A stretch of DNA of 59,935 bases from assembly GCA_013215655.1 (NCBI GenBank), contig JABSOX010000030.1, forward strand, positions 1 to 59,935, in the 5' to 3' direction. A program made the translations under genes and the position numbers. The notes below the pieces were generated by a model. It saw only the letters and a program-made list of their open reading frames with translations. It ran no database searches and had not been told where the DNA came from. Of this stretch, positions 3,579 to 41,086 are shown piece by piece. Origin of the DNA: Colwellia sp. (lineage in GTDB: Bacteria; Pseudomonadota; Gammaproteobacteria; Enterobacterales; Alteromonadaceae). Position 1 is the first letter of the stretch; each line of letters starts with the position of its first letter.

Positions 3579-3610
3579 GGTAGATGAGCAATTAACTTAT
3601 CTACCTTTTT
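3579..3610 (+). terminator. Intrinsic terminator of the 131-residue gene
   Basis: GGTAGATGAG (3579-3588) pairs with CTTATCTACC (3596-3605), with one G-T wobble and a 7-base loop, followed directly by five T residues. It lies 36 bases after the stop codon. Confidence 0.85.
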
Positions 3611-3611
3611 A

Positions 3612-3673
3612 TGTTCAGGATGAACGGTATGTCACGGTCACATGGATGTGAATGAGTGACGATGTTCAGGATG
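3612..3673. repeat. Companion palindromic repeat (unit T), first copy
   Basis: The block starts TTCAGGATGAACGGTATGTC and ends GATGTTCAGGATG. It contains a nested palindrome: outer arms GTCAC (3631-3635) and GTGAC (3656-3660), inner arms TCACAT (3638-3643) and ATGTGA (3646-3651) around GG. Related blocks occur near 15130, 53283 and 59713, each time directly before a GTAG hairpin repeat. A degraded relative also follows at about 3757-3818. The 277-base gap between the small gene and hemL holds only the terminator and these repeats. Confidence 0.8.
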
Positions 3674-3752
3674 TGTAGGTCGAGGTTTACCTCGACAAAG
3701 TATTTAACTTTTAAACCTTTGTCGAACCTCACTCCGTTCGTGTCGACCTACA
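3674..3752. repeat. 79 bp REP-pair (BIME-like) element
   Basis: The ends are a perfect inverted repeat, TGTAGGTCGA and TCGACCTACA. Each end reads GTAG followed by a hairpin, the layout of bacterial REP sequences. On the plus strand, GTAG (3675-3678) precedes GTCGAGG-TTTA-CCTCGAC (3679-3696), a perfect 7 bp stem. On the minus strand, GTAG (3751-3748) precedes a looser hairpin with GTCGA/TCGAC ends (3747-3721). An alternative pairing CGACAAAG with CTTTGTCG joins the halves. The same 79 bp layout recurs at 27138-27216. Mobilisation by a REP-associated transposase would be expected from known REP families; no such gene lies in the window. Confidence 0.85.
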
Positions 3753-11922: not shown

Positions 11923-14900
11923 ATGTTATCAATGATTGAAGCTGCACTTGACCGCACACGTTCGGTATTAATGATTTTTGTGTTGTTATTAATATCTGGC
12001 GCTATTACTTATGTGAATATTGCTAAAGAAGCCAATCCAGACATCACCATGCCAATGATTTATGTTTCCATGGTGCATGATGGTATTTCGCCTGAAGATG
12101 CTGAGCGGATGTTGGTTCGTCCAATGGAAAAAGAACTTAAATCTATCGCTGGTATTAAGGAAATGAGTGCTAATGCCAGCGAAGGGCATGCTTCCATAAC
12201 CATAGAATTTATCGCCGGCTTAGACCCTAAAGAAGCTTTGGCTGATGTGCGTGATAAAGTAACCTTAGCTAAAGCAAAACTACCTGCTGAATCAGAAGAG
12301 CCTGAAGTCCATGAAGTGACGATGGCTAATCAAGTACCAGCCATTACGGTGATTTTATCGGGGCCAGTAACTGAGCGTGGTTTAATAACTTTAGCACGTG
12401 ATCTACAAGATAAAATTGAAGGCATGCAAGAAGTGCTGGAAGTAGATATTGGTGGTGACCGTGAGGATATGGTTGAAATTATTGTCGACCCATTATTGAT
12501 GGAAAGTTACGGTCTTGATCAAGGTGATATCTATAACCTTGTAGAACGCAATAATCGTCTAGTGCCTGCTGGCACAATGGATACCGGTAAAGGACGTTTT
12601 GCCATTAAAGTCCCTTCTGTTTTTGAAACGGTACAAGATTTATTAGAGCTACCGATAAAAGCTGATGGCGATAAAGTCATTACCTTTGAAGATGTTTCTA
12701 CCATTAGACGTTCATATAAAGATCCTACTTCTTTTGCTCGCTTAAATGGTGAGCGTTCTGTCTCATTGGAAATTAAAAAACGCTCTGGTGAAAACGTTAT
12801 TATTACTGTGAATAAAGTCAAAGCACTGATTGAAGAAGAACGTAAAAAATGGCCTAACCAAGTAGTGGTTGATTATATTGGTGATCAATCTTTAGAAATT
12901 AAAGATACTTTAACTGATTTACAAAATAACGTATTTTCAGCGGTGCTACTGGTTGTTATCGTGATTATTGCAGCACTAGGTACTCGTACGGCGATGTTAG
13001 TGGGTTTAGCTATTCCAGGTGCATTCTTAACGGGTATATTGGTTTTAGCGATAGCGGGTTATACCGTAAATATTGTGGTACTTTTTGGTTTGATCATGGC
13101 CGTTGGTATGTTGGTTGATGGCGCTATTGTGGTTACTGAGTTTGCGGATCGGCAAATGAATGAAGGTAAATCGAAAAAAGTCGCTTATGGTTTGGCAGCA
13201 CGTAGAATGGCATGGCCTATTATTGCATCAACGGCTACTACTTTAGCGGCATTTGCGCCATTAATGTTTTGGCCGGGTATGATGGGTGAATTTATGAAAT
13301 ATTTACCCATCACCTTGATTGCGGTACTCACCGCTTCTTTAGCGATGGCGTTAATTTTTGTACCAACCTTAGGGACTATATTTGGTAAAACTCGGACCTT
13401 AAGTGATGAAGATCAGCAGCAGGCTAAAATAGCTGAAAGTGGCGATTTGACTAAACTTACTGGCTTTACGGGTAAGTACATTCGTTTATTAACCAAAGCC
13501 ATTCATCATCCTTGGAAAATACTATCAGGCACTATTGCTATGTCATTTTTTGTGATTTGGTTATATGGCGCATCTGGGCTGGGTGTTATTTTCTTTCCTG
13601 AAATTGAGCCCAATAGCGCAACGATGGTGGTGCGTTCGTACGGTGATTTATCGGTACGAGAAAAAGATGCAATTATGGTTGATATTGAAAGTCGCATTCT
13701 TGATTTGGATGAAATAGCAACACTATATACGCGCACTGGTGGTAATGACCAAATTGGTACTTTTCAAGTTAATTTTATTAACTGGCAATTCAGACGCCCT
13801 GCCGATGAGATTATTGCTGAAATTCATCGCCGCACTGATGATTTAGCCGGTGTCGAAATAGAAGTGAGAAAAAATGAAGATGGTCCGCAAAATGGCAAAG
13901 ATCTTCGTCTTGAATTAAGTTCTCGTTTTCCTGAGAAATTACAAGAGTCGGTACTTATTATTCGTAAAGCGTTAGTTGCGGATGGGCAGTTTACTGATAT
14001 TGAAGATTCGGGCTCTAAACCAGGTATTGAATGGCAGTTAAAGATTAATCGAAGCTTGGCCGCAACCTATGGCGCCGATGCTGCTTTGGTTGGTACTACC
14101 GTACAAATGGTCACCAATGGTTTGAAATTGGGAGAATATCGACCGGATGATGTTGACGATGAATTAGATATTCGTGTACGTTTCCCTGAAAATAAACGTA
14201 ATATTGGTCGCCTTGATACCTTAAGAGTTAAAACTGCAAATGGCTTAGTACCAGTAAGTAGCTTTGTTGAGCGTAAAGCTGCACCAAAAATTGATACTAT
14301 TCGTCGTATCGATAGCAAACGGGTAGTAACCATTGAAGCGAATTTAATTCCAGGGGCACAATTATTAAAAGTATTACCTAAATTAAAAGAGCAGTTCCCT
14401 GAATTGGGTATTCATCCTAGTGTTGAAATTAACGTGAAAGGCCAAAGTGAAGATCAACAAGAGTCAGAAGACTTCTTAGTAAAAGCATTTGGTATTGCGC
14501 TGTTTGTGATGGCAATTATATTGGTAACTCAATTTAATAGTTTCTATCAGGCACTATTAATATTAAGCGCCGTGATTTTCTCGACCGTAGGTGTATTTCT
14601 CGCATTATTCTTATTACAAAAGCCCTTCGGTATCGTGATGGGGGGTATTGGTGTTATTTCATTAGCAGGTATTGTTGTTAACAACAATATTGTCTTAATT
14701 GATACTTATAATGTCTTGCGTAAAGAAGGCCATGCGGTTATCGATGCAATTTTAAGAACAGGGGCACAACGTTTACGTCCGGTAATGTTAACTACTATTA
14801 CGACTATTCTTGGTTTATTACCTATGGTCTTGCAGCTCAACTTAGATTTCTTTGAACGTACCGCCGTTTTTGGTGCCCCATCAACACAATGGTGGACACA

Positions 14901-15063
14901 GCTGGCAACAGCTATTGCTGGTGGACTAACCTTCGCAACGGTATTAACCTTAGTCTTAACACCTTGTATGTTAGCGTTACGTGATAATAAAAAAGAAAGG
15001 AAACTTGCTAAAGCTCAATTGAAAAATGAAGCTGAAGTTACATCGATAACCAATGCGGCTTAG
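11923..15063 (+). CDS. RND efflux pump inner-membrane permease
   Basis: 1046 residues, with two related halves, each with a large periplasmic loop, as in the AcrB/RND superfamily. I chose ATG at 11923 because AAGGAGA lies 6 bases upstream; an in-frame codon 24 bases earlier would overlap the adaptor gene. In the fourth membrane helix the motif MLVDGAIVVTEFADRQ has one Asp (about 399) and a Glu seven residues later, where AcrB has two adjacent Asp. In helix 10, NNNIVLIDTYN lacks the AcrB Lys. The proton-relay pattern therefore resembles VDG-type RND proteins more than classical AcrB. Drug, dye or lipid export is likely; the substrate is unknown. A strong terminator follows. Confidence 0.9.
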   Translation: MLSMIEAALDRTRSVLMIFVLLLISGAITYVNIAKEANPDITMPMIYVSMVHDGISPEDAERMLVRPMEKELKSIAGIKEMSANASEGHASITIEFIAGLDPKEALADVRDKVTLAKAKLPAESEEPEVHEVTMANQVPAITVILSGPVTERGLITLARDLQDKIEGMQEVLEVDIGGDREDMVEIIVDPLLMESYGLDQGDIYNLVERNNRLVPAGTMDTGKGRFAIKVPSVFETVQDLLELPIKADGDKVITFEDVSTIRRSYKDPTSFARLNGERSVSLEIKKRSGENVIITVNKVKALIEEERKKWPNQVVVDYIGDQSLEIKDTLTDLQNNVFSAVLLVVIVIIAALGTRTAMLVGLAIPGAFLTGILVLAIAGYTVNIVVLFGLIMAVGMLVDGAIVVTEFADRQMNEGKSKKVAYGLAARRMAWPIIASTATTLAAFAPLMFWPGMMGEFMKYLPITLIAVLTASLAMALIFVPTLGTIFGKTRTLSDEDQQQAKIAESGDLTKLTGFTGKYIRLLTKAIHHPWKILSGTIAMSFFVIWLYGASGLGVIFFPEIEPNSATMVVRSYGDLSVREKDAIMVDIESRILDLDEIATLYTRTGGNDQIGTFQVNFINWQFRRPADEIIAEIHRRTDDLAGVEIEVRKNEDGPQNGKDLRLELSSRFPEKLQESVLIIRKALVADGQFTDIEDSGSKPGIEWQLKINRSLAATYGADAALVGTTVQMVTNGLKLGEYRPDDVDDELDIRVRFPENKRNIGRLDTLRVKTANGLVPVSSFVERKAAPKIDTIRRIDSKRVVTIEANLIPGAQLLKVLPKLKEQFPELGIHPSVEINVKGQSEDQQESEDFLVKAFGIALFVMAIILVTQFNSFYQALLILSAVIFSTVGVFLALFLLQKPFGIVMGGIGVISLAGIVVNNNIVLIDTYNVLRKEGHAVIDAILRTGAQRLRPVMLTTITTILGLLPMVLQLNLDFFERTAVFGAPSTQWWTQLATAIAGGLTFATVLTLVLTPCMLALRDNKKERKLAKAQLKNEAEVTSITNAA

Positions 15064-15091
15064 TTGCTAACTAGCATAATTTTAGTAATAT

Positions 15092-15128
15092 ATGCCAGAT
15101 TCTACAATGAGTAGGCTCTGGCATTTTT
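15092..15128 (+). terminator. Intrinsic terminator of the RND operon
   Basis: ATGCCAGA (15092-15099) and TCTGGCAT (15117-15124) form a perfect 8 bp stem, followed by TTTTT. It lies 28 bases after the permease stop. Confidence 0.85.
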
Positions 15129-15129
15129 A

Positions 15130-15268
15130 TGTTCAGGATGAACAGTATGTCGCGGTGCCATGGCCGCTCTTAGGCATCCATGCCTTTGCGGCATTAGTAC
15201 TTCCATGTACGTCGATGGCAATGAGTGATGATGTTCAGGATGAACGGTAGGTCGAGGTTCACCTCGAC
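15130..15268. repeat. Composite repeat: expanded unit T followed by a half REP
   Basis: The block opens with TTCAGGATGAACAGTATGTC and closes with GATGTTCAGGATGAACG. The middle is enlarged and contains nested arms: GCCGC/GCGGC around GGCAT-CC-ATGCC, inside TGCCAT/ATGGCA. It is followed at once by GTAG (15247-15250) and the hairpin GTCGAGG-TTCA-CCTCGAC (15251-15268). No right-hand REP half is present. The rest of the 277-base gap before the peptidase gene is AT-rich and without other visible features. Confidence 0.75.
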
Positions 15269-15340
15269 TAAAAATGTGGAATAATAATGTTTTTGATGAG
15301 CAGTAACGAACTGAGAACTATTTAATTTTAAGGAATATTG

Positions 15341-16750
15341 ATGACGGTAAAACACTTTTTTAAAACGGTTAAATACTTAATAGTATTTGGCTCTATCTTA
15401 ACTTTTAATGCCTCTGCTGATGTTTTAAATGCAGAACAAAAAAAACAAATGGCGTTGTTAGAAACAACAGCTTTGAACTCAGAACTTTCTTATCAAATTG
15501 TTGAATCATTAACAACAGAAGTAGGTCATCGCTTAATGGGTTCTGAAGGTGACAAAAAAGCGATAAAGTGGGCTGTCGCCAAAATGAATGAGTTGGGGTT
15601 TGATAAAGTATGGACAGAAGAAGTCAAAGGAACTTTTTGGCAACGAGGTGATGTCCAAGCAAAAATAATTAGCCCTTATCCACAACCAATATCCGCTATT
15701 GCCCTAGGTGGCAGTATATCGACTAAAAAAGCAGGGCTTACTGCTAATATCGCACACTTTAAAACATTTGCTGATTTAAAGGCTGCTCCAGATAACAGCT
15801 TAAACGGAAAGATAGCCTTTATTTCTTATCGTATGGAGCGTCATATTGATGGTAAAGGTTACGGACCTGCAGTAGGAGCTCGTGTTGGTGGAGCATCCGT
15901 CGCTGCTAAAAAAGGAGCGTCTGCAATAATTATTCGCTCTGTGGGCACAGATAATAATCGTACGGCTCATACGGGGATTATGCGTTATGAGGATGGTATT
16001 AAACAAATTCCTGCGGCGAGTATTTCTAACCCTGATGCGGATATGTTAATCAATCAACTTAACCGAGGTGGCGATGTCAGCTTTTTCTTAAAGCTAATTG
16101 CTCATTCAGATCCTGAAGTTGAGGTTATATCAGCCAATGTTATTGGCGAAATTACCGGTAGTGAATTTCCAAATGAAATTATTTCTATTGGTGCTCACTT
16201 AGATAGCTGGGATGTCGGAACGGGCGCGTTGGATGATGGTTTAGGTATTGGCATCATGTTAGCTGCTGCACATCATATAACTCAATTACCACAAAAACCA
16301 AAACGAACCATTCGTGTTATTTTATTTGCTGCTGAAGAAGTTGGCCTGTTAGGGGCGAAAGAATATATGAATCTTCATAAAGATAATATGAACAATCATA
16401 TTATTGGCGCAGAGTGGGATTATGGTACAGGTAAAATATATAAAATGACCTCTGGCGTTGGTGAAGAAGCTCTACCAGCAATTAAAGAATTGAGTAAATA
16501 TCTACATCCTCTTGGCGTAGAATTATCGTTAGACAACGATGCAAAAGCACAATCAGACATGAGTTTACTCAGTAATGCGGGTATGCCAAGTATGAATTTT
16601 TCGCCGGATGCACTAGCGTATTTTGATTATCACCATACGGAAAATGATACTTTAGACAAAATTAACAGGGATGATATTAAGCAAAATACCGCAATTTATA
16701 CTTTATTTGCTTATTTTGCAGCTCAATCTGGAATTGATTTTAGGAAGTAG
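15341..16750 (+). CDS. Secreted M28-family metallopeptidase (carboxypeptidase Q-like)
   Basis: 469 residues. I chose ATG at 15341 (AAGGA 7 bases upstream) over the adjacent TTG at 15338. A signal peptide (about 1-25, ending NASA) directs export. A protease-associated (PA) insert lies at about 125-265. The M28 zinc-aminopeptidase core follows: AHLDSWDVGTGALDDG with His at about 286 and the bridging Asp at about 298, FAAEEVGLLG with the catalytic Glu pair, and FDYHHTENDT with a C-terminal His ligand. The two-zinc site appears complete. Relatives hydrolyse dipeptides or trim N-terminal residues, consistent with peptide scavenging by a marine heterotroph. It is a single gene convergent with the HD-GYP gene. 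Confidence 0.9.
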   Translation: MTVKHFFKTVKYLIVFGSILTFNASADVLNAEQKKQMALLETTALNSELSYQIVESLTTEVGHRLMGSEGDKKAIKWAVAKMNELGFDKVWTEEVKGTFWQRGDVQAKIISPYPQPISAIALGGSISTKKAGLTANIAHFKTFADLKAAPDNSLNGKIAFISYRMERHIDGKGYGPAVGARVGGASVAAKKGASAIIIRSVGTDNNRTAHTGIMRYEDGIKQIPAASISNPDADMLINQLNRGGDVSFFLKLIAHSDPEVEVISANVIGEITGSEFPNEIISIGAHLDSWDVGTGALDDGLGIGIMLAAAHHITQLPQKPKRTIRVILFAAEEVGLLGAKEYMNLHKDNMNNHIIGAEWDYGTGKIYKMTSGVGEEALPAIKELSKYLHPLGVELSLDNDAKAQSDMSLLSNAGMPSMNFSPDALAYFDYHHTENDTLDKINRDDIKQNTAIYTLFAYFAAQSGIDFRK

Positions 16751-16784
16751 AATTGCTCTGCTTATGATGAGTGCTCTATCTCCA

Positions 16785-17969
16785 TTATCCCTCCATTAGT
16801 AAGAATTCGATGATTTTGTTCATATCTAAATCAAAATCATCGGCTCTGACCCCTTTTACAATGAAATCATCATCGTCAGATAAGTCGATATCTTTAGCCA
16901 TTTCATAATGATTTTTTTCTGCGTCGTAAAATGTTCTTACCCTAGGTTTTGTGGGGTTTCCTTGATTCTTGCGTTCAACAATTGCTAGTTTATTTGAACT
17001 AAGCTCAACTAAAGAGCCCACTGGGTATACCCCCATACATTTAATAAATTGATCAACTAAAGAAATGTCGAGATGGTTTTGTTGGGCAAGCCTTCTTAAA
17101 ATGCTAAACGACTTAACATGACTGTAACCGTCTTTGTAGCAGCGGTTGGCTGTTAGTGCGTCAAAAATATCGCAAATGGCAATCATGCGACCATATTGGG
17201 TAATATTTTCCCCTTTAATTTTTAGAGGGTAGCCCGTGCCATCTAATTTTTCATGATGAAGAGCTGCCACTTCTAGACTAAGTTCCGCAACATCAGGTGT
17301 ACGTTTAATAATATCTATTGAGTGAGCTGCATGTGATTTCATCACCTCAAATTCGCTTTTAGTTAGCTTGCCGGGTTTATTTAATATTTTATCGGGGACC
17401 ATTATTTTACCGACATCATGTAAAAAAGCGCCGACAGAGAGTAATTGAATAATTTGTTTGTCAATTTTTAAAAATCGGGCGAAAATTGTCATTAACACAG
17501 AAACAGAAACAGAATGTTCTAATAGATATTCATTTTTTTTACGAATATTAATGACACAAGCTAAGGCATCTGGATTTTTGAAAATGGTTTCTATGGTTTT
17601 ATTGGTAACATCAATAACAGGGGTTAAATTTAACTCTTTACCTAGTAATGCATCTTCGAAAATTTTTCTTTGAATATTTTTTGCTTCATTGAAGAGTTTC
17701 TTTGCTTTAGTAACGGATAAAATAACTGGGCGATTAGTATCATCGGAAAGTACTTTTTTAGGTGGTTCTTCTATTATGTCAGCATTGTTGGTTAACGTTT
17801 TACTGGTATCAATAAGTAATGTCTCAACACCTTTGTTGAGCAGATTTTTTATTATCTTTTCATTTTTTATATGACTAGCGTTGGTTAAATTGAAATTGCC
17901 TTGTTGTTTAACAATATCAACAACAAAATGACCGACTATTAATTCGTTAATGTTAATTTCTATGATCAT
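16785..17969 (-). CDS. HD-GYP c-di-GMP phosphodiesterase with N-terminal DUF3391
   Basis: 394 residues. The N-terminal region (about 1-130) resembles DUF3391, common in front of HD-GYP domains. The HD-GYP domain (about 140-330) has a full set of metal-ligand motifs: H152, HDVGK with H184-D185, KSH with H213, HHE at 238-240, and GTGYP at 244-248. It should therefore hydrolyse c-di-GMP, probably to GMP. A C-terminal extension (about 330-394) is acidic. It lies 116 bases downstream of a diguanylate cyclase gene on the same strand, so the two opposing enzymes may share a transcript. Confidence 0.92.
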   Translation of the reverse strand: MIIEININELIVGHFVVDIVKQQGNFNLTNASHIKNEKIIKNLLNKGVETLLIDTSKTLTNNADIIEEPPKKVLSDDTNRPVILSVTKAKKLFNEAKNIQRKIFEDALLGKELNLTPVIDVTNKTIETIFKNPDALACVINIRKKNEYLLEHSVSVSVLMTIFARFLKIDKQIIQLLSVGAFLHDVGKIMVPDKILNKPGKLTKSEFEVMKSHAAHSIDIIKRTPDVAELSLEVAALHHEKLDGTGYPLKIKGENITQYGRMIAICDIFDALTANRCYKDGYSHVKSFSILRRLAQQNHLDISLVDQFIKCMGVYPVGSLVELSSNKLAIVERKNQGNPTKPRVRTFYDAEKNHYEMAKDIDLSDDDDFIVKGVRADDFDLDMNKIIEFLLMEG

Positions 17970-18085
17970 TAAAAGATTGACTCATTATTTGTTAATGCAT
18001 ATTTTTCTGTAATACTATCTAGCTTAAGTGTAATACAAAAACTACATTCTTCATTATTAGAGGAAGCATTAGTCGTTTATCTTTT

Positions 18086-19099
18086 TTACGCTTTTATTGA
18101 TAATTCATCTTTCTGTTTATAGAGGTGCTGATCAGCCCTTTTAAGCAATTCATCCATATTAATATTACCTTCACATTGTGCAGCTCCGCAGCTGATCGTG
18201 ATTGGTATAAGTTTACCTTGATATGGCATTTGGTTATTAATAAAGAATTGGCACAAACGTTTTGAAGCGGCTAATGCTTCCTCATAGGTTTGACTTGCTA
18301 AGGTGATAACAAATTCATCGCCTGCATATCTAAAGCATCGGTCGTTTTCACGTATCAATTCTTGTAATTGGCTGGCAACATAACTTAATACTTTGTCTCC
18401 ACAATCATGGCCATAAGTATCATTAATATACTTAAACTTATTACAATCAATAAATAATAATGAAAAAGGTACACCGTATCGTCGATGACGAATCAGCTCT
18501 TCATTAATAGTTGTTTCCATTAATCGTCGATTAGCAACGCCAGTTAGACGATCATAATTTGCCATGTATTCTAATTGCTCTCTGATCAATACATTGGAAA
18601 GACATAAACTGATCTTTATTGCTAACTGTTCTAAATGGTATGTGCCTAACTGCGGATGAAAACGTTTTTTATCGTTATCAGTAAATAACAAACTGCCAAA
18701 CAGTTTATTTTCTAAGGTCAGTGGTGTTAATGCTGCCGACTGTGTTTTGGCTAACAGGCTCTTAGGAATAATTGTCGCAAGTTGCTTAAGGTCGTTGGTA
18801 AGAAAAGGTTTATTGTCGGTATGATAAATACTTAGTTGTTGCTGAGAAATTCGTCGAGTATTTTGTTTATGCCAATTGGATTGTAAATTACCATTTAATA
18901 AGTAACTCAGTGGGGTTGGCTCGACCAGTAATAAATGGATACCCGTTAAATTAAATTTATCTTTAATTGATTCAAGTAAGTGTTTTAGTAGCTCATGGCT
19001 GGACTGACAGGACAAAACCTCAGTTTCTATTGCAAACAATTTTTTTGCAATCGACTCATTAATTCTTGAGTTTTCAATTAACTGGTTTAAATCTGACAT
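18086..19099 (-). CDS. GAF-GGDEF diguanylate cyclase (AGDEF variant)
   Basis: 337 residues. A GAF-like sensory domain (about 20-172) precedes a GGDEF domain (about 175-335). The active-site motif is AGDEF (259-263) instead of GGDEF. An inhibitory I-site, R250-E-N-D253, lies at the standard position five residues upstream. YDRLTGVANRR and DCNKFKYINDTYGHDCGD are typical of active cyclases. An AGDEF enzyme of Vibrio cholerae (VCA0965) has been reported active, so activity is likely. No membrane segment is visible, so it is cytosolic and probably tuned by a small ligand or redox state through GAF. It is followed by the HD-GYP gene. Confidence 0.92.
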   Translation of the reverse strand: MSDLNQLIENSRINESIAKKLFAIETEVLSCQSSHELLKHLLESIKDKFNLTGIHLLLVEPTPLSYLLNGNLQSNWHKQNTRRISQQQLSIYHTDNKPFLTNDLKQLATIIPKSLLAKTQSAALTPLTLENKLFGSLLFTDNDKKRFHPQLGTYHLEQLAIKISLCLSNVLIREQLEYMANYDRLTGVANRRLMETTINEELIRHRRYGVPFSLLFIDCNKFKYINDTYGHDCGDKVLSYVASQLQELIRENDRCFRYAGDEFVITLASQTYEEALAASKRLCQFFINNQMPYQGKLIPITISCGAAQCEGNINMDELLKRADQHLYKQKDELSIKA

Positions 19100-19264
19100 G
19101 TACTACCTTCGCGTTAAAAGCTAACTCATTGTTATATTTTCTGTCCGGTAGTGCAAGTATTTAACAACAGTCTCTCTGGTATTAAAATTGCTTAATTATT
19201 AATAATGTAAACATTGTTGTGTTATTGACATTAAGTGAGCAAATTGTTAATTCATTTTATCTGA

Positions 19265-19291
19265 TTAATTTTTTTCAATTGATGCCGATAA
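19265..19291 (+). promoter_or_regulatory. Sigma-28 (FliA) promoter of motX
   Basis: TTAATTTT (19265-19272), 11 bases, then GCCGATAA (19284-19291). The -10 box is a perfect match to the flagellar sigma-28 consensus and the -35 matches 6 of 8, with exactly the standard 11-base spacing. It lies 45 bases before the motX start codon. Late flagellar genes are the usual targets of this sigma factor. Confidence 0.8.
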
Positions 19292-19336
19292 CTAAGTCGT
19301 ACCTTTTTAAACTTTAATTTATAGTCAGGTTGTTTT

Positions 19337-19954
19337 ATGCGTTTGATAATTACCTTATGTTCAATTGTTTTATTTTTTATTCCTGTTGCTAATGGTCAGA
19401 CATTACAAGCTGTTCAAATTTATACAGACAATCAGCTGTTGGATTTAATTAAGGAAAACAAACATTTAAGCCAGGTTGTTCTTGACCAGTGTCAGTTGGT
19501 TCAAGATATTGAAGCGCGCGCAAGTAAATCAAAAATGCCCTCCTACCAGTTTTTATGGGGAGATATGTTGGCCTATGGTGTTTGTGTAAAAACAGATTTA
19601 TTGCTTGGTTTGTATTATATGGAGCAAGCGGCAGATCAAGGTTTGTCTGAAGCGATTGAACAATTAGGTCGTTATCACCATATTGGCAAGTTTATGCAAC
19701 CAGATATTAGTAAGGCAATTATTTACCTCAAAGAAGCGGCAAGTTTAAAAAACTTGAAAGCGCAAATACGTTTAGCGCAAATGTATAATCAAGGCCATGG
19801 TAGTCCACTTGATTATCCTGAGCTATATTCTCAATTACATCATTCGGTAACCAATGATAAAAAAAAGCATAAACAAATCTCAAAATTGTTAAGTCAATTA
19901 GCGGAAAAAATGCCTGAACGTATCGTCTTAGCAGCAAAGAAAACAGCTTATTAA
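19337..19954 (+). CDS. motX: Sodium-driven flagellar stator accessory protein MotX
   Basis: 205 residues with a signal peptide (about 1-20, ending VANG) and Sel1-like helical repeats (about 70-170). Motifs close to Vibrio MotX as I recall it include DNQLLDLIKENKHL, CQLVQDIEARA, FLWGDMLAYGVCV, GLYYMEQAADQGL and the GSPLDY stretch. MotX is periplasmic, part of the T-ring that anchors PomA/PomB-type Na+ stators to polar flagellar motors. The two conserved cysteines near residues 53 and 82 may pair. A sigma-28 promoter lies directly upstream, and rnr-rlmB follow as in Vibrio. The motY and pomAB partners are not in the window. Confidence 0.93.
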   Translation: MRLIITLCSIVLFFIPVANGQTLQAVQIYTDNQLLDLIKENKHLSQVVLDQCQLVQDIEARASKSKMPSYQFLWGDMLAYGVCVKTDLLLGLYYMEQAADQGLSEAIEQLGRYHHIGKFMQPDISKAIIYLKEAASLKNLKAQIRLAQMYNQGHGSPLDYPELYSQLHHSVTNDKKKHKQISKLLSQLAEKMPERIVLAAKKTAY

Positions 19955-20039
19955 TTTATACTTTTGAGACGTAAGTGTTTTTTGAAACATGAATCTTGAA
20001 GTTGCTTGGGTATAGGTACCAGCTTTGTAACGCTATGAA

Positions 20040-20068
20040 TTCGCTTCTTGGTGCCAATAACGTATAAT
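20040..20068 (+). promoter_or_regulatory. Promoter candidate for rnr
   Basis: A perfect -10 hexamer TATAAT (20063-20068) lies 28 bases before a GTG start. A weak -35 (TTCGCT, about 20040) sits 17 bases upstream. Transcription would start near 20075. That is downstream of the TTG at 20048, which argues that the longer reading from that TTG is not the real protein. Confidence 0.5.
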
Positions 20069-20095
20069 ATAAAAAAATCCCACAGACCCTTACTT

Positions 20096-22543
20096 GTGAC
20101 ATTTAAAGACCCCCATTCAAAGCGTGAAGCTAAAAAGTACGAAAAACCTATTGCTAGTCGTGAGTTATTGCTCTCAATCATTGAAAAAGAATCACCTCCA
20201 CCTAGTTTTAGTGCACTGAGTAAATTACTCAAATACACCGATGAAAATGCCTTAATAGGTTTGAAACGTCGACTCCGTGCCATGGAAAACAGCGGACAGC
20301 TCATTTTTAATAAATTTAAGCAATATGCAATTCCTCCTAAAAATAGCACGTTAACGGGTCGTGTCATTGGTCACCGTGATGGTTTTGGCTTTTTAACGCC
20401 TGATTGCGCTCCTGGAGAAAAACCGGGAAAAGACTTCTTTATATCATCGTATGAAATGAAACGTGTATTTCATGGAGACATTGTTGAAGTTATTCTTGTT
20501 GATCGTACCGACAGAAAAGGTCGTAAAGAAGTAAAAATACTTGATGTCATTGAACCTCGAAAAGCACCCGTTGTTGGTCGGTTTTATGTTGATCATCATA
20601 TTGCTTGTGTGGTGCCTGATGATGCCAGAATTAAGCAAGATATTTTAATTAAACCAGATGAAATGAAAGGTGCTCGCCACGGTCAAATGGTTGTTGTTGA
20701 AGTGCTACATCGTCCTTCTAAACGTACTAATGCTGTTGGTAGAGTCATTGAAGTATTAGGTGAACATTTAGCGCCGGGTATGGAAATTGAAATAGCATTA
20801 CGGGCACACGATTTACCACATCAATTTTCTGCTGAATTAATGGAAGAAGTAAGTTCTTTAGCGGATGAAGTTGAAGAAAGCTCTTTAAAAGACCGAATCG
20901 ATTTACGGCAATTACCGTTAGTGACTATAGATGGTGAAGACGCACGAGATTTTGATGATGCTGTTTACTGTGAACCTAAAAAGGGTGGCGGTTGGCGGTT
21001 ATGGGTGGCTATTGCTGATGTCAGTTATTATGTTCGAACGGATACCGCATTAGATGAAGAAGCTATTTCTCGTGGCAATTCTGTATACTTCCCAAGTCAA
21101 GTCATTCCAATGTTACCTGAAAAGTTATCAAATGGATTATGTTCGCTAAACCCTGATGTTGACCGTTTATGTATGGTTTGTGAAATGACCATCAGTGCTG
21201 CTGGTAAATTGTCTGGTAGCAAGTTTTATTCAGCAGTAATGCGTTCTAAAGCACGCTTTACTTACACTAAAGTCGCCAAAATATTATCCGCAGAAGACTC
21301 TGTTGAAAAAGCAGCGTTACGTGAACAATACCAACCATTGGTGGGTGATCTTGAAAACCTTTATCAAATGTATTTAGCTTTGATGACGGCTCGAACAAAT
21401 CGTGGTGCAATTGCCTTTGAAACCGAAGAGCCATGTTTCATTTTTAATAGTGACAAAAAAATAGAAACCATTGAACCGCTTATTCGTAATGATGCTCATA
21501 AAATCATTGAAGAATGTATGATCTCAGCGAATGTTGCTACGGCTAAATTTATTGAAAAACATAAAAAACCGGGGCTTTTTCGTGTACACGATAAACCCAA
21601 TGAAGATAAGTATAAAAACTTTGTTACTTATTTAAGTGAGCTTGGTATTGAACTCCCTACTCGTGAACAGCCAGAGCCTGCAGATTATGGTTATATTTTA
21701 ACGCAAGTCGCTGGGCGTCCTGATCGAGAGCTTATTCAAACCATGTTATTACGTTCGATGAGGCAAGCCGTTTATCAAAGCGATAATATGGGTCACTTTG
21801 GTTTAGCGCTAGAATCTTATAGTCATTTTACTTCACCTATTCGTCGTTACCCTGATCTTATTGTTCATCGTGTGATCAAGGCTATTTTAAACGAACAGGC
21901 GATTAAACAGAAAACTCAAAGCGCAGCGAATGATGGCTATTTTGAATACTCTCCTGAAGCAGTCATTGAGCTTGGTGAACATTGCTCGATGACTGAGCGT
22001 CGCGCTGATGAAGCCACCCGTGACGTAGCTGACTGGCTTAAATGTGAATTTATGCAAGACCATGTTGGTGATACTTTCTCAGGAGTCATTTCAACGGTGA
22101 CAAACTTTGGCATGTTTGTACGTTTAGCTAATTTACATATCGAAGGACTTATCCATATCACTTCGTTGGGCCGAGATTTTTATCACTTTGATGATATTCG
22201 AATGAGTCTAACAGGTGAAAATACAGGGACAAAATTTCATGTTGGTGATGTTGTTGAAGTTAAAGTTGCCGCAGTTAATTTAGACGATAAAAAAATAGAT
22301 TTGGTTTTATCTAGCGATAATGCTGTTCTTAGCGGAGCTAAACCTTTGAAAGGTAAAGCGCGTACTAAAACGACTCGTAAAAGTACCAAACAAGCATTAG
22401 AACAAGAGAGAATTGCTAATAAAGGTAGTAAAAATCAAAATAAAAAGAAAAGTAAAACTAAGAAAGATGAAAAATCAAAAGTAAAAAAACGTAGCGCAAG
22501 AAAAAAACGCCCCGGCAAAAATGCGCGTAAAACGGCAACGTAA
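20096..22543 (+). CDS. rnr: Ribonuclease R
   Basis: 815 residues from GTG at 20096, giving MTFKDPHSKREAKKYEKP, which fits the E. coli RNase R N-terminus. The frame is open back to a TTG at 20048, but the probable promoter lies between the two. Domains in order are a winged-helix region (about 20-70), cold-shock domains (LTGRVIGHRDGFGFL at about 82), the RNB catalytic domain with DARDFDDA at about 282-289 carrying the Mg-binding Asp cluster, an S1 domain (about 660-745), and a very Lys/Arg-rich tail (about 750-815). RNase R degrades structured RNA from the 3' end, and in E. coli is induced by cold and stress. A half REP separates it from rlmB. Confidence 0.95.
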   Translation: MTFKDPHSKREAKKYEKPIASRELLLSIIEKESPPPSFSALSKLLKYTDENALIGLKRRLRAMENSGQLIFNKFKQYAIPPKNSTLTGRVIGHRDGFGFLTPDCAPGEKPGKDFFISSYEMKRVFHGDIVEVILVDRTDRKGRKEVKILDVIEPRKAPVVGRFYVDHHIACVVPDDARIKQDILIKPDEMKGARHGQMVVVEVLHRPSKRTNAVGRVIEVLGEHLAPGMEIEIALRAHDLPHQFSAELMEEVSSLADEVEESSLKDRIDLRQLPLVTIDGEDARDFDDAVYCEPKKGGGWRLWVAIADVSYYVRTDTALDEEAISRGNSVYFPSQVIPMLPEKLSNGLCSLNPDVDRLCMVCEMTISAAGKLSGSKFYSAVMRSKARFTYTKVAKILSAEDSVEKAALREQYQPLVGDLENLYQMYLALMTARTNRGAIAFETEEPCFIFNSDKKIETIEPLIRNDAHKIIEECMISANVATAKFIEKHKKPGLFRVHDKPNEDKYKNFVTYLSELGIELPTREQPEPADYGYILTQVAGRPDRELIQTMLLRSMRQAVYQSDNMGHFGLALESYSHFTSPIRRYPDLIVHRVIKAILNEQAIKQKTQSAANDGYFEYSPEAVIELGEHCSMTERRADEATRDVADWLKCEFMQDHVGDTFSGVISTVTNFGMFVRLANLHIEGLIHITSLGRDFYHFDDIRMSLTGENTGTKFHVGDVVEVKVAAVNLDDKKIDLVLSSDNAVLSGAKPLKGKARTKTTRKSTKQALEQERIANKGSKNQNKKKSKTKKDEKSKVKKRSARKKRPGKNARKTAT

Positions 22544-22562
22544 TATAGTTAAAAAATATCTA

Positions 22563-22598
22563 TGTAGGTCGACATGAACGAAGTGAAGCTCGGCAAAA
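22563..22598 (-). repeat. Half REP element between rnr and rlmB
   Basis: GTAG (22564-22567) is followed by GTCGA and closes with TCGGC (22590-22594), a 5 bp stem with one wobble. Between them the sequence reads like the reverse complement of the right half of the 79 bp elements. It is a lone right-type REP in the orientation opposite to the element at 3674. Confidence 0.7.
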
Positions 22599-22631
22599 CA
22601 AATAAAATAAAGAAATTGAAAAGAGATAATA

Positions 22632-23387
22632 ATGGCAAAACATGACGAATTAGTCTTTGGAATTCATGCAATAAATGAATTATTAAAACGAGCGCCTGAG
22701 CGTTTTATCGAGCTTTTTTTATTGAAAGGTCGTGATGATGAACGGATGAAGTCAATTATTAATTTATCGAGAAAATATGGGATTTCTACACAACTGGTTA
22801 ATCGTAAAGTGCTTGATGAAAAAAGCGACGACGAGCAACACCAAGGTGTTGTTGCTCGTATTACTCAAGGAAAGACTTATACCGAAAATGATATCGACGA
22901 TATTCTTGACCAAGCTAAGCAGCATGAAAACCCTCCCTTTTTATTAATACTAGACGGTGTTACCGACCCTCATAATTTAGGTGCCTGTTTACGTAATGCT
23001 GATGCTGCAGGCGTTCAGGCGATTATTGTACCAAAAGATAATGCTGCACGCTTAACCGCTACGGTACGTAAAGTAGCTGTAGGTGCTGCGGAAACTGTAC
23101 CTTTAGTGCAAGTAACAAACTTAGTGCGCACAATGAAGCAATTGCAAGAACGTGGTGTGTGGATTGTTGGTACGGCAGGAGAAACAGATACTTGCCTTTA
23201 TGATGTTAAGTTGTCGGGACCTATGGCCTTGGTGATGGGGGCAGAAGGTAAAGGTATGCGTCGGCTAACGCGCGAAAACTGTGATGAACTAGTAAAATTA
23301 CCTATGCTTGGTGGTGTTTCTAGTTTAAATGTATCTGTCGCAACGGGTATCTGTTTATTTGAGATTGTCAGGCAGCGTTTAGTTTAA
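22632..23387 (+). CDS. rlmB: 23S rRNA (guanosine-2'-O-)-methyltransferase RlmB
   Basis: 251 residues, a SPOUT/TrmH-family methyltransferase that methylates the 2'-OH of G2251 in the 23S peptidyl-transferase loop. An N-terminal substrate-binding domain (about 1-75) is followed by the SPOUT core. Motif 1 is [19 protein letters not shown], motif 2 is [13 protein letters not shown], and motif 3 is [18 protein letters not shown], which forms the trefoil-knot SAM site. All are intact. AAGAGA lies 8 bases before the ATG. The rnr-rlmB order is conserved from E. coli. It converges on the binding-protein gene 55 bases away. Confidence 0.95.
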
Positions 23388-23442
23388 TAAATCTGCTTCA
23401 TGGCGTTATTACCGGATTAATTCCCGCTTATCTCTGGGGCGT

Positions 23443-24315
23443 TTATTGATAGAGTTGAATCCATAAATTACTGTCATTAATTGGCGTCAACTCGGGTAGG
23501 TCATTATTAAATAAGTGGATGTATTGCTTATCTTTCCATTGGCTTAATGGAAAGAGTTGCTTGGTTACTATATGGCGGGCCATTAATGCTTGTAAACTAC
23601 CATCAGCATTTGCTTGCCTGAAACCATATTCAATTTGTTTAGCAAGTTCTGGGTTATCTCTATTTACAAAGTAATACATTGGGAAGTCATATTGTAATAT
23701 AACATCGTCAAACATCATTAAATCGGGATAAAGTTGCTGAGCTGATAGCAGTTCAGCGTAACCTTCAAAAATCGATCTTGGAAAATAATCACACCGACCT
23801 TGGTTTAACATCTTAAACATTGAATCAAATCGTACGACACGAGCAACTTGAAAATCATTATCCTCTAATATCTCAGAGTCTGGCCAATGCTCTCCCTGAC
23901 AAGCAATAAGAGCCTGTAACTCTTTTTTATTAATACCCACAAATTTTTCATAATTTGACTTGTGAATTAAAAAAACTCGGTAGCCAAGTAAACCTTTAAA
24001 TAAAGGAATACGAATAGGTAATAAATCTTCTTCTCTTTGAGTATTGGTACCAGACCAAAATACATCGATAACATTGTCGCTCAGTAATCTTAACGTTCTC
24101 CCATGAGTTATTTCCCCTTCACCTAATACTTGTACCGCTTTGGCGGGATACTTTTGTGTACTTTTGATAAGGGTTAGAGTCAGTAACTCAATAAAATAAC
24201 CGTGACTTACATCTTCAATGGATTGAGCGGCGAGTACCTTGATGGTATTAGACATAGCGGGGCAAGTTAGTATTAAACTAATTAATAAGGTGATAGTGGT
24301 AAGTCTACGTTCCAT
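23443..24315 (-). CDS. Orphan periplasmic solute-binding-like protein (copy 2)
   Basis: 290 residues with a signal peptide (about 1-22). It is a paralogue of the protein at 6322-7179: both have GLLGYR or GLMGYR followed by F(L)I, WPDSEIL, a K-M-L-x(3)-R segment and DYFPR, in the same order and spacing. The fold is probably type-2 periplasmic binding (SBP_bac_3-like). No transporter genes accompany it. It is divergent from another orphan binding protein (24482-25573). The ligand is unknown. Proteins of this kind are common in Shewanella and Colwellia relatives (from memory), usually with no assigned role. Confidence 0.8.
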   Translation of the reverse strand: MERRLTTITLLISLILTCPAMSNTIKVLAAQSIEDVSHGYFIELLTLTLIKSTQKYPAKAVQVLGEGEITHGRTLRLLSDNVIDVFWSGTNTQREEDLLPIRIPLFKGLLGYRVFLIHKSNYEKFVGINKKELQALIACQGEHWPDSEILEDNDFQVARVVRFDSMFKMLNQGRCDYFPRSIFEGYAELLSAQQLYPDLMMFDDVILQYDFPMYYFVNRDNPELAKQIEYGFRQANADGSLQALMARHIVTKQLFPLSQWKDKQYIHLFNNDLPELTPINDSNLWIQLYQ

Positions 24316-24481
24316 AAATAGCTTTAATGATTACCTTAACTTAAAAATAGCAGTGTCATTTTATTGTGCAAGTTACACGATTTTTTGTTGTAACATTTTT
24401 TCTTTCGCGATTAGCGTCTATGCTGATAAATAAGAAGTTTTTATAATACTAAGAATATATTTATTTTAAGTCGAATTACTG

Positions 24482-25573
24482 ATGCGCATTTTCATATTCA
24501 TTTTTACTTTCACATTTTGTCAAATGGTGTCTGCTAGCTCAGAGCAAGCAGATATCGTTTTGGTGAGTTCAAGTGCACTATCGGGCCCTGCTGCACAACT
24601 AGGCCTTAAGTTAAATCAAGGTGCTAATATATACTTTGATCACATTAATAAATTGGGTGGGATTGAAAATCAAAAAATTAAGTTTATTAGTCTTGATGAT
24701 GGTTATGAGCCTTATAAAGCCTTACAAAATACGCAAAAGCTACTAAATAGAGGTGATGTTTTTGCCTTTTTTAATTATGTTGGCACACCAACAACTCATG
24801 TTGTTTTACCGATAATTAAACAAAGTGAATTACCTTTCTTAACACCCTTTACTGGTGCTGAATTTTTAAGAAAGCCTGTTACTGATACTGTTTATAATCT
24901 TCGTGCTTCTTATTATCAGGAGGCTAAAGCGCAAATTGATTATTTAGTTAATGTTGTTAAAACTAAAAAGATTGGTTTGCTCATACAAGCCGATGAATTT
25001 GGTGCTACGGTTGAACAGGGATACTTAATTGCGATGACGCAGTATGGTATAGAGCCTATTGTTACTACCCGCTTTCGTCGTAATACCCAAGATATTTCAT
25101 TGGCATTAAGTATCTTAAAAAGTAAGGAAGTAGAAGCGGTGAGTTTTGTAGGTACCTATGAACCTTTTGCTGAATTAATAAACTCTGCCTACCAACAGAG
25201 TTTTACACCATTTTTTACTACTGTTTCTTTTATTTCGAGTCGTGAATTATTTCTTCGTATTAAACAACCAAGTAGAGTCTTAGTCACTGAAGTGCTACCA
25301 CAATTAAAAAACTGTACTTTGAGTATTTGTCTGCAATTTAAAGTAGATATGGAAAGGGCTGGTATTTCTGAAGTTGACCAAGTGCAGTTTGAAGGTTATT
25401 TAAATGCTCATTTATTTGTTGAAGTGATGAAGCGTTGCACTACTAAATTAACCCATCAATGTTTCTTTGATAACATTAAAATGTTGCAAGCTGACTTTGG
25501 CGGCCTTGATGTACGTTTTTCATCTGATACCCACCAAGGTCTTAATCAAGTTTATCTAAATTTGTATCAATAG
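24482..25573 (+). CDS. Periplasmic binding protein of the LivJ/Leu-Ile-Val type (orphan)
   Basis: 363 residues. A signal peptide (about 1-19, ending VSAS) is followed by a type-1 periplasmic binding fold (Peripla_BP_6). The opening is typical: SSALSGPAAQLGLKLNQGANIYFDHIN, then GGIENQKIKFISLDDGYEP. This family binds amino acids or similar compounds for ABC importers, or serves as a receptor ligand domain. No LivHMGF-type permease or ATPase genes lie here, so transport cannot be assumed. It is divergently transcribed from copy 2 of the other binding-protein family, with 166 bases between their starts. The substrate is not predictable. Confidence 0.85.
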   Translation: MRIFIFIFTFTFCQMVSASSEQADIVLVSSSALSGPAAQLGLKLNQGANIYFDHINKLGGIENQKIKFISLDDGYEPYKALQNTQKLLNRGDVFAFFNYVGTPTTHVVLPIIKQSELPFLTPFTGAEFLRKPVTDTVYNLRASYYQEAKAQIDYLVNVVKTKKIGLLIQADEFGATVEQGYLIAMTQYGIEPIVTTRFRRNTQDISLALSILKSKEVEAVSFVGTYEPFAELINSAYQQSFTPFFTTVSFISSRELFLRIKQPSRVLVTEVLPQLKNCTLSICLQFKVDMERAGISEVDQVQFEGYLNAHLFVEVMKRCTTKLTHQCFFDNIKMLQADFGGLDVRFSSDTHQGLNQVYLNLYQ

Positions 25574-25660
25574 TTTTCTCTGATAATTTATCTTGCATTA
25601 ATTAATTATTTTCTCTACAATATGCGACCTTAATTCAGCCTGAACATTTTTTTGTTCCTT

Positions 25661-25731
25661 GCCTCATACTGGTGTTTGGCTGAGCCAGCAAAGAGGCTAC
25701 AACCGTAGGGAGCTCGTAATGCGTCATTACG
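25661..25731 (+). promoter_or_regulatory. Structured leader and start-codon hairpin of rpsF
   Basis: The leader can fold. GCCTC (25661-25665) pairs with GAGGC (25693-25697) around an inner TGGC-TGA-GCCA hairpin. CTAC-AACC-GTAG follows (25697-25708). Then CGTAATG-CGT-CATTACG (25715-25731) is a perfect 7 bp stem that contains the ATG at 25719. Many bacteria autoregulate this operon through S6:S18 binding to a leader with a conserved CCG; a CCG is present at 25703-25705. Identity with that motif is not proven. Confidence 0.4.
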
Positions 25732-26165
25732 AAATCATATTTATGGTTCACCCTGATCAGAGTGAACAAGTACCTGGAATGATCCAGCGTTATACTGACT
25801 TGATCAATGCTGCTGAAGGCAAAGTCCACCGTCTAGAAGACTGGGGACGTCGTCAATTAGCATACCCAATCAATAAACTGCATAAAGCACATTATGTTCT
25901 TATGAACATTGAAGCGCCACAAGCAGTTCTTGATGAATTAGAAACTTCTTTCCGTTATAACGATGTTGTTATTCGTAACATGATCATGCGCACTAAAAGC
26001 GCGGTAACTGAAGCATCAACAATGGCTGCTGCTAAAGAAGACCGTCGCGATGACCGCCGCGAAGTTAAGAAAGATGTTGCTCCAGCTCCAGCTCCGGCTG
26101 CACCTGTTGTTACTGAAGCTCCAGCTGCTACTGAAGAGAAATCTGCAGAAGCTGCCAGCGAATAG
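25719..26165 (+). CDS. rpsF: 30S ribosomal protein S6
   Basis: 148 residues from ATG at 25719, giving the conserved start [21 protein letters not shown]. The frame is open 60 bases further upstream, but that extension does not belong to S6. The S6 core occupies about residues 1-100. The C-terminal tail (about 105-148) is rich in Ala, Pro, Glu and Lys, a variable low-complexity tail. In E. coli RimK adds glutamates to the S6 C-terminus; whether that happens here is unknown. S6 binds S18 in the small-subunit platform, and its gene partner rpsR follows. Confidence 0.96.
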
Positions 26166-26228
26166 TATCGATAATTGGCATGAGCATCGCTCAATGCTAA
26201 ATATCACAACAAATAACTCGTGATTTGA

Positions 26229-26253
26229 CTGTTAAATGAATGTTATTTAACAG
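26229..26253. other. Perfect inverted repeat between rpsF and rpsR
   Basis: CTGTTAAAT (26229-26237) and ATTTAACAG (26245-26253) are perfect complements around 7 bases. They lie in the 170-base gap that in E. coli and Vibrio holds priB. No T-run follows, so processing or partial attenuation is more likely than termination. No protein-coding frame of PriB size fits in the gap. Confidence 0.55.
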
Positions 26254-26335
26254 ATTGAAATGATTAACTAAGGTATTTTATGTATGAGTCTAAGTCTTTT
26301 AGAATTATTCATTAATACCATATTAGGAGAAATCC

Positions 26336-26563
26336 ATGTCTCGTTTTTTTAGACGTCGTAAGTTCTGCCGCTTCACAGCGGAAGGTGCTACCTCTATCGA
26401 TTATAAAGATATTGCTACACTGAAAAACTACATCACTGAAAGTGGTAAAATTGTTCCTAGCCGTATTACTGGTACTGCTGCTAAATATCAACGTCAACTT
26501 GGTCGTGCGATCAAGCGTGCTCGTTATTTAGCATTGTTACCATATACTGATTTACATAAGTAA
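26336..26563 (+). CDS. rpsR: 30S ribosomal protein S18
   Basis: 75 residues with the full S18 sequence: [13 protein letters not shown] at the start, then [12 protein letters not shown], and the RNA-binding [31 protein letters not shown] lies directly before the ATG. It binds 16S rRNA with S6 in the platform. rplI follows after 20 bases, as usual. Confidence 0.97.
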
Positions 26564-26583
26564 CCTAATAAGGGGTTTTGAAA

Positions 26584-27036
26584 ATGGAAGTAATTCTTCT
26601 TGATAAAATCGCCAAATTAGGCGGCCTTGGTGACAAGGTTTCTGTTAAATCTGGCTATGCTCGTAACTACTTATTACCACAAGGTAAAGCAGTATTTGCA
26701 TCAAAAGCTAACGTTGAGCAGTTTGAAGCTCGTCGTGCTGATTTAGAAAAGAAATTAGCTGGCGTATTAAGCACTGCTGAAGCTCAAGCGACTAAAATCG
26801 TTGAGTTAGCTGAAATAACTATCGCATCATCTGCTGGTGAAGAAGGTAAGTTATTTGGTTCTATCGGTACTCGTGATATCGCTAATGCGATCACTGAAGC
26901 GGGTGTTGAAGTAACTAAAGCTCAAGTACGTATGCCTTTAGGTACTATCCGTGAAACAGGTGAATTTGATATTGCTATTCACTTACATAACGATGTTGAT
27001 ACTAGTATCAAAGTTATTGTTATCGCTGAAGCGTAA
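26584..27036 (+). CDS. rplI: 50S ribosomal protein L9
   Basis: 150 residues from ATG at 26584, giving [19 protein letters not shown], the standard start; a TTG six bases upstream is ignored. AAGGGG lies upstream at a normal distance. The N-terminal rRNA-binding domain (about 1-50), a connecting helix and the C-terminal domain are all present. L9 binds domain V of 23S rRNA near the L1 stalk. It is the last gene of the operon and is followed by a strong terminator. Confidence 0.97.
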
Positions 27037-27087
27037 GCTAAATTTAGCTTTTTGATGTCAATTATTGGCATTAAGATAAAAATATAA

Positions 27088-27123
27088 ACACCGCAATTTC
27101 TTTTGAAACTGCGGTGTTTTTTT
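27088..27123 (+). terminator. Intrinsic terminator of the rpsF-rpsR-rplI operon
   Basis: ACACCGCAATTTC (27088-27100) pairs with GAAACTGCGGTGT (27105-27117), 13 bp with one mismatch and a TTTT loop, running into a tract of nine T. This is the strongest terminator in the window. Confidence 0.93.
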
Positions 27124-27137
27124 ATGTGTAGATTATT

Positions 27138-27216
27138 TGTAGGTCGAAGTTTACTTCGACAAAGGAATTTATTATCAGAAGATTGTCGAACCTCACTACG
27201 TTCGTGTCGACCTACA
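27138..27216. repeat. 79 bp REP-pair (BIME-like) element, second full copy
   Basis: It has the same length and ends as the element at 3674. GTAG (27139-27142) precedes GTCGAAG-TTTA-CTTCGAC (27143-27160); the right half ends TCGACCTACA. Compared with the first copy the left stem is GAAG/CTTC instead of GAGG/CCTC, changed on both sides so that pairing is kept. It begins 14 bases after the rplI terminator. The 387-base gap between rplI and mshH holds this element, the terminator, the next element, and about 110 bases without a recognised feature. Confidence 0.87.
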
Positions 27217-27240
27217 GGAGCATCTATTCTGTGCATTATT

Positions 27241-27311
27241 TGTAGGTCGAGGTTTACCTTCGACTAAGGAATTTATTATCAGCAGAATGTCGAAGTAAAC
27301 TTCGACGTACA
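27241..27311. repeat. 71 bp REP pair with two left-type halves
   Basis: TGTAGGTCGA at the left is followed by GTCGAGG-TTTA-CCTTCGAC with one bulged T. The right half is GTCGAAG-TAAA-CTTCGAC (27289-27306) followed by GTAC. Read on the minus strand, the right half is a left-type hairpin with head GTAC in place of GTAG. It is a rearranged pair in tandem with the 79 bp copy, 103 bases start to start. Confidence 0.82.
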
Positions 27312-27423
27312 GGAGATAAAAATAGAATCCTTCTGGTTACACTGCTATTGTTGTAAAAAAGCATCATGATAAGGTGCGTTATGTCATCGATACTCAATAG
27401 ATGATATTAGTAGGTTAATATTT

Positions 27424-29082: not shown

Positions 29083-29213
29083 ATATCAGGTTTTTTACCC
29101 TATTATTAAATAAATATAAGGTTATTAAAAACTTGCGCCGAGCAGTGAATAAGGGATAATAACTTTTAGAGTTTTCGTTTTATTACATAATAATTACCTA
29201 ATAAATTAGATAA

Positions 29214-39122: not shown

Positions 39123-39144
39123 GTAGGTTGTAGTTTACTGCAAC
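39123..39144. repeat. Diverged half REP upstream of mshB
   Basis: GTAG (39123-39126) precedes GTTGTAG-TTTA-CTGCAAC (39127-39144). The GTAG head, stem length and TTTA loop match the standard REP, but the stem has been rewritten by paired changes: C-G became T-A, and A-T became a T-G wobble. It lies about 18 bases downstream of the possible pilin promoter, so it may be in the mRNA leader. Confidence 0.65.
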
Positions 39145-39313
39145 AATGGTACTTAATTATTATAAAGAAAGGTTAGACAGGTGACATTTTTGGTAAATCA
39201 TTGTTACACTTAATTTAATAAAGTTGTTGTACACATTTATATCGACCACTGTGTGGTGTGTTTATATTTGAGGATACTTGCCGCAACGGCGGAAAAATCT
39301 TAGAGAGGCTAAT

Positions 39314-39913: not shown

Positions 39914-39948
39914 TAATAAAAATTTTGGATTTTAAAGAGGTAAATAAA

Positions 39949-40446: not shown

Positions 40447-40491
40447 ATAATAGTTAGTTAATAAAAAGGGATTACACCTCCTTTGACTCTT

Positions 40492-40956: not shown

Positions 40957-41086
40957 TACTTCTGTTTAAACCCAATCATTACGTTTCTATCTAATTCTTA
41001 TTCTTTTTTTAAATGAGTTTTGCTCATCGTATCGACAATGTTAAGCTGTTATATTAACAGTAGATATCATTCAAAGGGAGATTACA

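Follow-up and report, generated by a model that had tools for sequence, protein, structure and literature searches.

The window, by which we mean the whole stretch of 59,935 nt that was analysed, is contig C90 of the draft genome of Colwellia sp. (GCA_013215655.1; 5.56 Mb in 161 contigs; G000 in our comparison set). It carries the following repeat elements, whose arms are of three types designated S, L and J:

3674–3752, plus strand: complete REPIN of 79 bp, with an S arm (GTAGGTCGAGGTTTACCTCGAC) on the plus strand and an L arm on the minus strand
15247–15268, plus strand: lone S arm, immediately after a copy of the genus-wide CATGGATG/CAGGATG repeat
22563–22597, plus strand: lone degenerate L arm, between a 2.5-kb gene (20048–22543) and a SpoU-family rRNA methylase gene
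27138–27216, plus strand: complete REPIN of 79 bp, S arm on the plus and L arm on the minus strand, downstream of the ribosomal protein L9 gene
27241–27311, plus strand: second REPIN-like element consisting of two S arms, with an additional T in the stem of the first
39123–39144, plus strand: possible highly diverged S arm (GTAGGTTGTAGTTTACTGCAAC), the most altered copy, assigned by resemblance only
53355–53425, plus strand: diverged three-way-junction arm (J), outside the 16 J pattern matches reported below
59851–59922, plus strand: three-way-junction arm (J), with a REP head and closing stem and two hairpins filling the loop

The two 79-bp elements of the earlier note are both where it placed them, have TGTAGGTCGA/TCGACCTACA ends and are 83% identical in an 82-nt register. 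Of the partial or altered copies it had added, those at 15247, 22564, 27241, 53356 and 59852 stand, and the one at 39123 is retained by resemblance only. Folded as single-stranded DNA, the elements at 3674–3752 (z −5.6, with 0 of 200 shuffles as good) and 27138–27216 (z −3.0, 1 of 200) both do better than shuffled sequences, as do the J forms at 59852 (z −4.0) and 53356 (z −4.3). The L arm at 22564 folds poorly on its own (z +1.0, with 172 of 200 shuffles as good).

In the S arm, GTAG is followed by a stem of 7 perfectly paired bp around a 4-nt loop (GTCGAGG-TTTA-CCTCGAC), and the inner stem pairs of S variants covary, for example in GTCGAAG-TTTA-CTTCGAC. In the L arm, the hairpin after GTAG is longer and imperfect (GTCGA-CACGAACGTAGTGAGGC-TCGAC), and the J arm has the head and closing stem of S with two further hairpins in the loop. 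An S arm on one strand often lies opposite an L arm on the other, both heads pointing outward. At up to three mismatches we count 22 such inverted pairings, which involve 19 distinct L partners, span 73–220 nt and occur in 18 of 74 clusters of matches. Under a looser rule (≤10 of 32 mismatches), an L-like arm is found on the other strand within 160 nt of 29 of the 60 S arms with enough sequence, leaving about half of the S arms single; the controls gave 1 of 60 when the same strand was examined and 1 of 59 when the search was moved 600 nt away. The REP pair is asymmetric, the small hairpin being perfect and the longer one opposite it imperfect; many copies are single arms, and a third arm type is present. 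A T precedes the head at 109 of the 116 S and L sites (S, 58 of 62; L, 51 of 54). The repeats show the GTAG head with its hairpin and the many extragenic copies that characterize GTAG-type REPs, and the recurring unit of two inverted REPs with a short spacer is that of a REPIN. Near one contig end, three L arms lie in tandem in the same orientation (G000:C123:32361–32535).

Elsewhere in the window, positions 39278–48212 hold a run of small genes with a shared repeat at their starts (GGTTTTACCTTAATAGAA), which we take to be prepilin-like; next comes a protein of 1531 aa that has DUF6701 and laminin-G-like domains. A second, genus-wide repeat (CATGGATG.../TTCAGGATGAACGG), partly in the form of a 51-bp tandem, occupies 3609–3673, 15124–15249 and 59709–59850, and this family is often found immediately upstream of S arms.

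Across the genome, patterns for the arms gave 62 matches for S, 54 for L and 16 for J at up to three mismatches, counts that overlap in that the S pattern also picks up the left half of J arms and in which two palindromes (C90:27285/27289 and C71:145577/145581) are counted on both strands; reversed-pattern controls gave 0. This difference excludes a chance origin of the repeat family, and the dozens of copies bear out the inference of the earlier note that the genome has its own REP family. The 132 matches group into 74 clusters, of which 9 lie at contig or piece ends. At two mismatches, the S pattern still finds 41 matches in this genome.

The draft genome contains one Y1_Tnp match, an intact reading frame at 12641–13096 of contig C128, in agreement with the earlier observation that no RAYT gene lies in the window. 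Arms of all three types (S, L and J) are found on both sides of the gene, an arrangement of flanking cognate REPs that defines a REPtron and that the earlier note had named as a check, in the form of a Y1_Tnp-domain RAYT flanked by the same hairpin. Its neighbors, named from reading their translations, are presumably an rpoD-like gene and a response-regulator gene. The 151-aa product has the motifs DHFH, WQ and YIVANP, scores 136.4 bits on the NCBIfam RAYT model NF047646 (cut-off 80) and also matches PF01797 (61.7 bits, cut-off 23); its best match among solved structures is 4er8, a TnpA(REP) (E 4e-4). In an alignment of 27 proteins, this RAYT included, H66, H68, Q106 and Y126 are invariant and W105 and R115 are conserved in at least 90%. 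Length, the motifs DH[LF]H, WQ and YI[VI]ANP and the short REPs correspond to group 3, or subclass 2.5, in a comparison with the published motif table.

Could the repeats instead be MITEs of an ordinary IS200/IS605 element? The protein does score on the IS200 model, although below threshold (42.8 bits, cut-off 55), but the draft genome has no second Y1_Tnp match, the RAYT model is well passed and the protein has YIVANP in place of the IS200-type Y motif given in PMC6006769. We rejected this reading on the single Y1_Tnp match and the failed IS200 model, and consider its probability negligible.

No close RAYT homologue turned up in any of the five genus mates; two have distant Y1 proteins of 21–27% identity. 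At three mismatches the S pattern gives 0–2 hits in each of the five, 3 in total, and the reversed control also totals 3, so that S counts in these genomes are at background level. Repeats and RAYT are thus jointly absent from the genus mates, and the system is present in one of the six genus members examined. For window positions 14900–29100, no clean empty site was found in the alignment to genus mates, of which five matched (the reverse-oriented L135 and L137 dropped out); identity was 65–90% where matched, and the intergenic sequence was too diverged. No transposition event between close strains was seen.

The J arms are hybrids of the REP and the second repeat. Their loop is homologous to second-repeat units such as GCCTGCATGGACGCAGGTACTTAACTTTTGTCTGGAACTAAAAAGTTG, a unit of two hairpins, and in the limited sequence pieces searched, 9 of the 17 places with this unit have no REP stem according to our reading of the rows. 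Other parts of the second family (window 15124–15249) match many places in the genus, two of them, among the matches listed, in G002. The occurrence of the unit outside REP stems and the genus-wide matches together indicate that the second repeat family is wider than the REPs. We consider it possible, although doubtful, that the RAYT tolerates REPs with the loop swapped for the two-hairpin unit of this unrelated genus-wide repeat, amplifying hybrid elements as a result. A locus with a 66% identical RAYT (L049) shows, by eye, an apparently similar hybrid with a different second hairpin, beside a CATGGATG core; if true, hybrids of this sort would form repeatedly. Hybrid arms raise the question of how much of the hairpin a RAYT really needs.

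At C128:23885–24075, an S/L pair (a REPIN) is nested inside a J arm, and when the pair is removed the flanking J halves align with intact J arms except for a short replaced junction stretch. Before an S arm at three other places, the left half of a J arm is all that was recognized; at one of these the contig ends soon after. In the window, BLAST matches of the CATGGATG/CAGGATG repeat stop at about 15244–15253, around the start of the S arm at 15247. Genome-wide, the CAGGA motif of the second repeat lies within 60 nt upstream of the head in 13 of 62 S and 1 of 54 L arms; the same holds for 543 of 17,842 (3.0%) random intergenic points. REPINs may prefer the second repeat as a landing place.

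Placement relative to genes is strongly restricted. Genome-wide, 131 of the 132 sites lie outside called genes, as the earlier note had claimed for the copies it saw, even though 84% of the 308.6 kb examined around the sites was called coding by our home-made gene caller. The sole exception is a 15-nt overlap with the 5′ end of a reading frame that we take to be dnaG-like and whose start we judge to have been called too long. None of the outcomes set against the proposal at the outset (few copies, random or intragenic positions, no matching RAYT) occurred. Genes flank 65 of the clusters on either side; the neighbors are convergent for 28, co-directional for 36 and divergent for 1, compared with 43, 162 and 26 for all adjacent pairs of called genes; between co-directional genes, S arms run along the gene strand in 22 cases and against it in 8. 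This placement behind genes and strand preference, together with several copies that by eye directly follow terminator-like stems, are what would be expected if the repeats were host-selected regulatory hairpins (terminators or stabilizers of mRNA 3′ ends) that are no longer mobile, with the RAYT as a relic. However, the head and the sequence are conserved beyond mere pairing, the family does not rise above background in genus mates, one REPIN is nested in a J arm and the RAYT gene has an intact frame that retains the motifs. We therefore regard the regulatory explanation as unlikely.

Copies are crowded around the RAYT gene. The RAYT contig, C128, holds 31 of the 132 sites in 0.5% of the genome. 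When nearby copies are merged into clusters and those within 3 kb of the RAYT (two in this genome) are omitted, 6 of the 72 other clusters are on C128, where 0.33 would be expected from rounded genome lengths. The same treatment of other genomes gave 7 of 43 other clusters within 50 kb of the RAYT in G116 (expected 0.92), 7 of 10 near the RAYT in G280 (expected 0.20), 2 of 7 in G208 (expected 0.13) and 3 of 19 in G089 (expected 0.42), and no crowding in G094 (0 of 12). In G101 all 9 sites, and in G111 both sites, are within about 1 kb of the RAYT; G028 has 1 of 5 matches beside it, and in G139, which has two RAYTs, 0 of 4 matches are on RAYT contigs and the hairpins next to one of them escape the pattern through their last base. 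Crowding is thus observed in the Colwellia genome and in four of nine other genomes examined. Local duplication with gene conversion, rather than copies made by the RAYT, could produce such a pattern, and some arrays are indeed tandem (the three L arms in a row on C123) or regularly spaced (in G116 and G280). The crowding nevertheless persists after merging of clusters and omission of those less than 3 kb from the RAYT, and we consider local duplication a distinctly improbable account of it.

We do not put forward RAYT-proximal crowding as a discovery, as it is already published (PMC2817692). REP accumulation near a RAYT, in regions of up to two hundred kb, was described there for three marine gammaproteobacteria and Thauera, and REPs are also concentrated near the RAYT in Marinomonas sp. 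MWYL1 (PMC8266576); both papers interpret this as multiplication near the RAYT gene after its arrival. The present data differ from these reports in concerning other genomes, with cluster counts and expectations, and in including an exception, G094.

Among 395 genomes of the family, a RAYT is found at E ≤ 1e-20 in 62 and the S pattern (two mismatches) in 28. By a hand tally, only 5 of the 10 genomes with at least four S matches have a RAYT at this threshold, and the link between RAYT and repeat is therefore not strict across the family. Three genomes (G053, G352 and G386) have 72, 25 and 29 S-pattern matches, respectively, without a RAYT at E ≤ 1e-20; these are orphaned populations, have a more distant RAYT or reflect assembly gaps. 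A perfect lone S arm, followed by a possible diverged partner, occurs in a genome of complete length from another genus of the family (locus L131, G082:C1:3394783).

RAYT relatives were collected with an alignment-based search. Record titles among the best 80 of 441 name Colwellia, Shewanella, Marinomonas, Psychromonas, Pseudoalteromonas, Catenovulum and Pseudomonas. Within 500 bp of the RAYT, a perfect GTAG hairpin is present at 47 of these 80 loci, compared with 7 of 80 at 2–2.5 kb, a control that included loci cut by contig ends, and 4 of 80 in shuffled sequence; for the 62 loci with full flanks, the counts are 35 near the RAYT and 5 at 2–2.5 kb. The remaining 33 of the best 80 have no perfect GTAG hairpin within 500 bp, in a scan that required perfect stems of at least 6 bp and so missed imperfect REPs. 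Of the 27 aligned loci, 16 have a perfect hairpin, and over these RAYT and hairpin distances are correlated (Mantel r 0.55, a value reached in 2 of 10,000 permutations), the hairpins having been picked from sequence by rule. As read from these sequences, the RAYT relatives have their own GTAG hairpins, and hairpin and protein appear to have diverged in step. In the two closest relatives, L049 and L050 (RAYTs 66% and 63% identical), the arms follow the same plan when read by eye, and the L arm of L050 carries a compensating change from GTCGA..TCGAC to GTCGT..ACGAC that keeps the pairing. Between L130 (G052:C127) and L096 (G000:C73), 4,345 nt are 100% identical, REPs included, in genomes of different genera; G052 is an 85% complete assembly, and the identity may accordingly come from mixed bins or recent transfer.

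Taken together, we are confident, at a probability of roughly 0.93, that the elements are GTAG-type REPs, occurring singly and as REPINs, and that the single RAYT identified in this genome spreads them; most simply, a group 3 RAYT maintains the REPIN population. By analogy with published TnpA(REP) work, the RAYT would bind single-stranded DNA at the GTAG head and hairpin, its tyrosine would cut next to the head and the strand would be rejoined elsewhere by the same protein. Arms and arm pairs would thereby be copied into intergenic gaps downstream of genes, with greater frequency in the vicinity of the RAYT gene. The same published work suggests that this RAYT is still working, and the background counts in genus mates, the nesting and the crowding are indirect signs that it moves or copies REPs. 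The data describe a well-delimited REPIN/RAYT system in a marine lineage, and with more genomes in which copies crowd around the RAYT, local multiplication of REPINs from the RAYT locus becomes readily testable by strain comparison.

The elements resemble the GTAG REPs and REPINs described in PMC3116915 and PMC3733652 in having a GTAG head and a hairpin, in being extragenic, arranged as inverted pairs and linked to a RAYT, and in being restricted to some species. They differ from them in (i) their sequences, which are new, (ii) the two dissimilar arms within a pair and (iii) the three-way-junction arm, whose loop belongs to another repeat family. The main text of PMC3733652 makes no mention of Colwellia, Pseudoalteromonas or Alteromonas. 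That paper does describe GTAG units linked with other palindromes or placed within them, and the J arms are similar to those composites in combining REPs with unrelated stem-loops; here, however, the other repeat occupies the REP loop, while the head and closing stem remain those of the REP. In the parts of the REP literature drawn on here, no replacement of a REP loop by another family was found. The RAYT is like those of group 3, or TnpA(Y1) subclass 2.5 (PMC6006769), in its 151 aa, the motifs DH[LF]H, WQ and YI[VI]ANP and its short REPs. Subclass 2.5 is placed there mostly in Xanthomonads and Pseudomonads, whereas the present example is from the Alteromonadaceae, with relatives in other marine gammaproteobacteria. 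The kind of system, a REP/REPIN population with its RAYT, is already known, and it is the sequences that are new.
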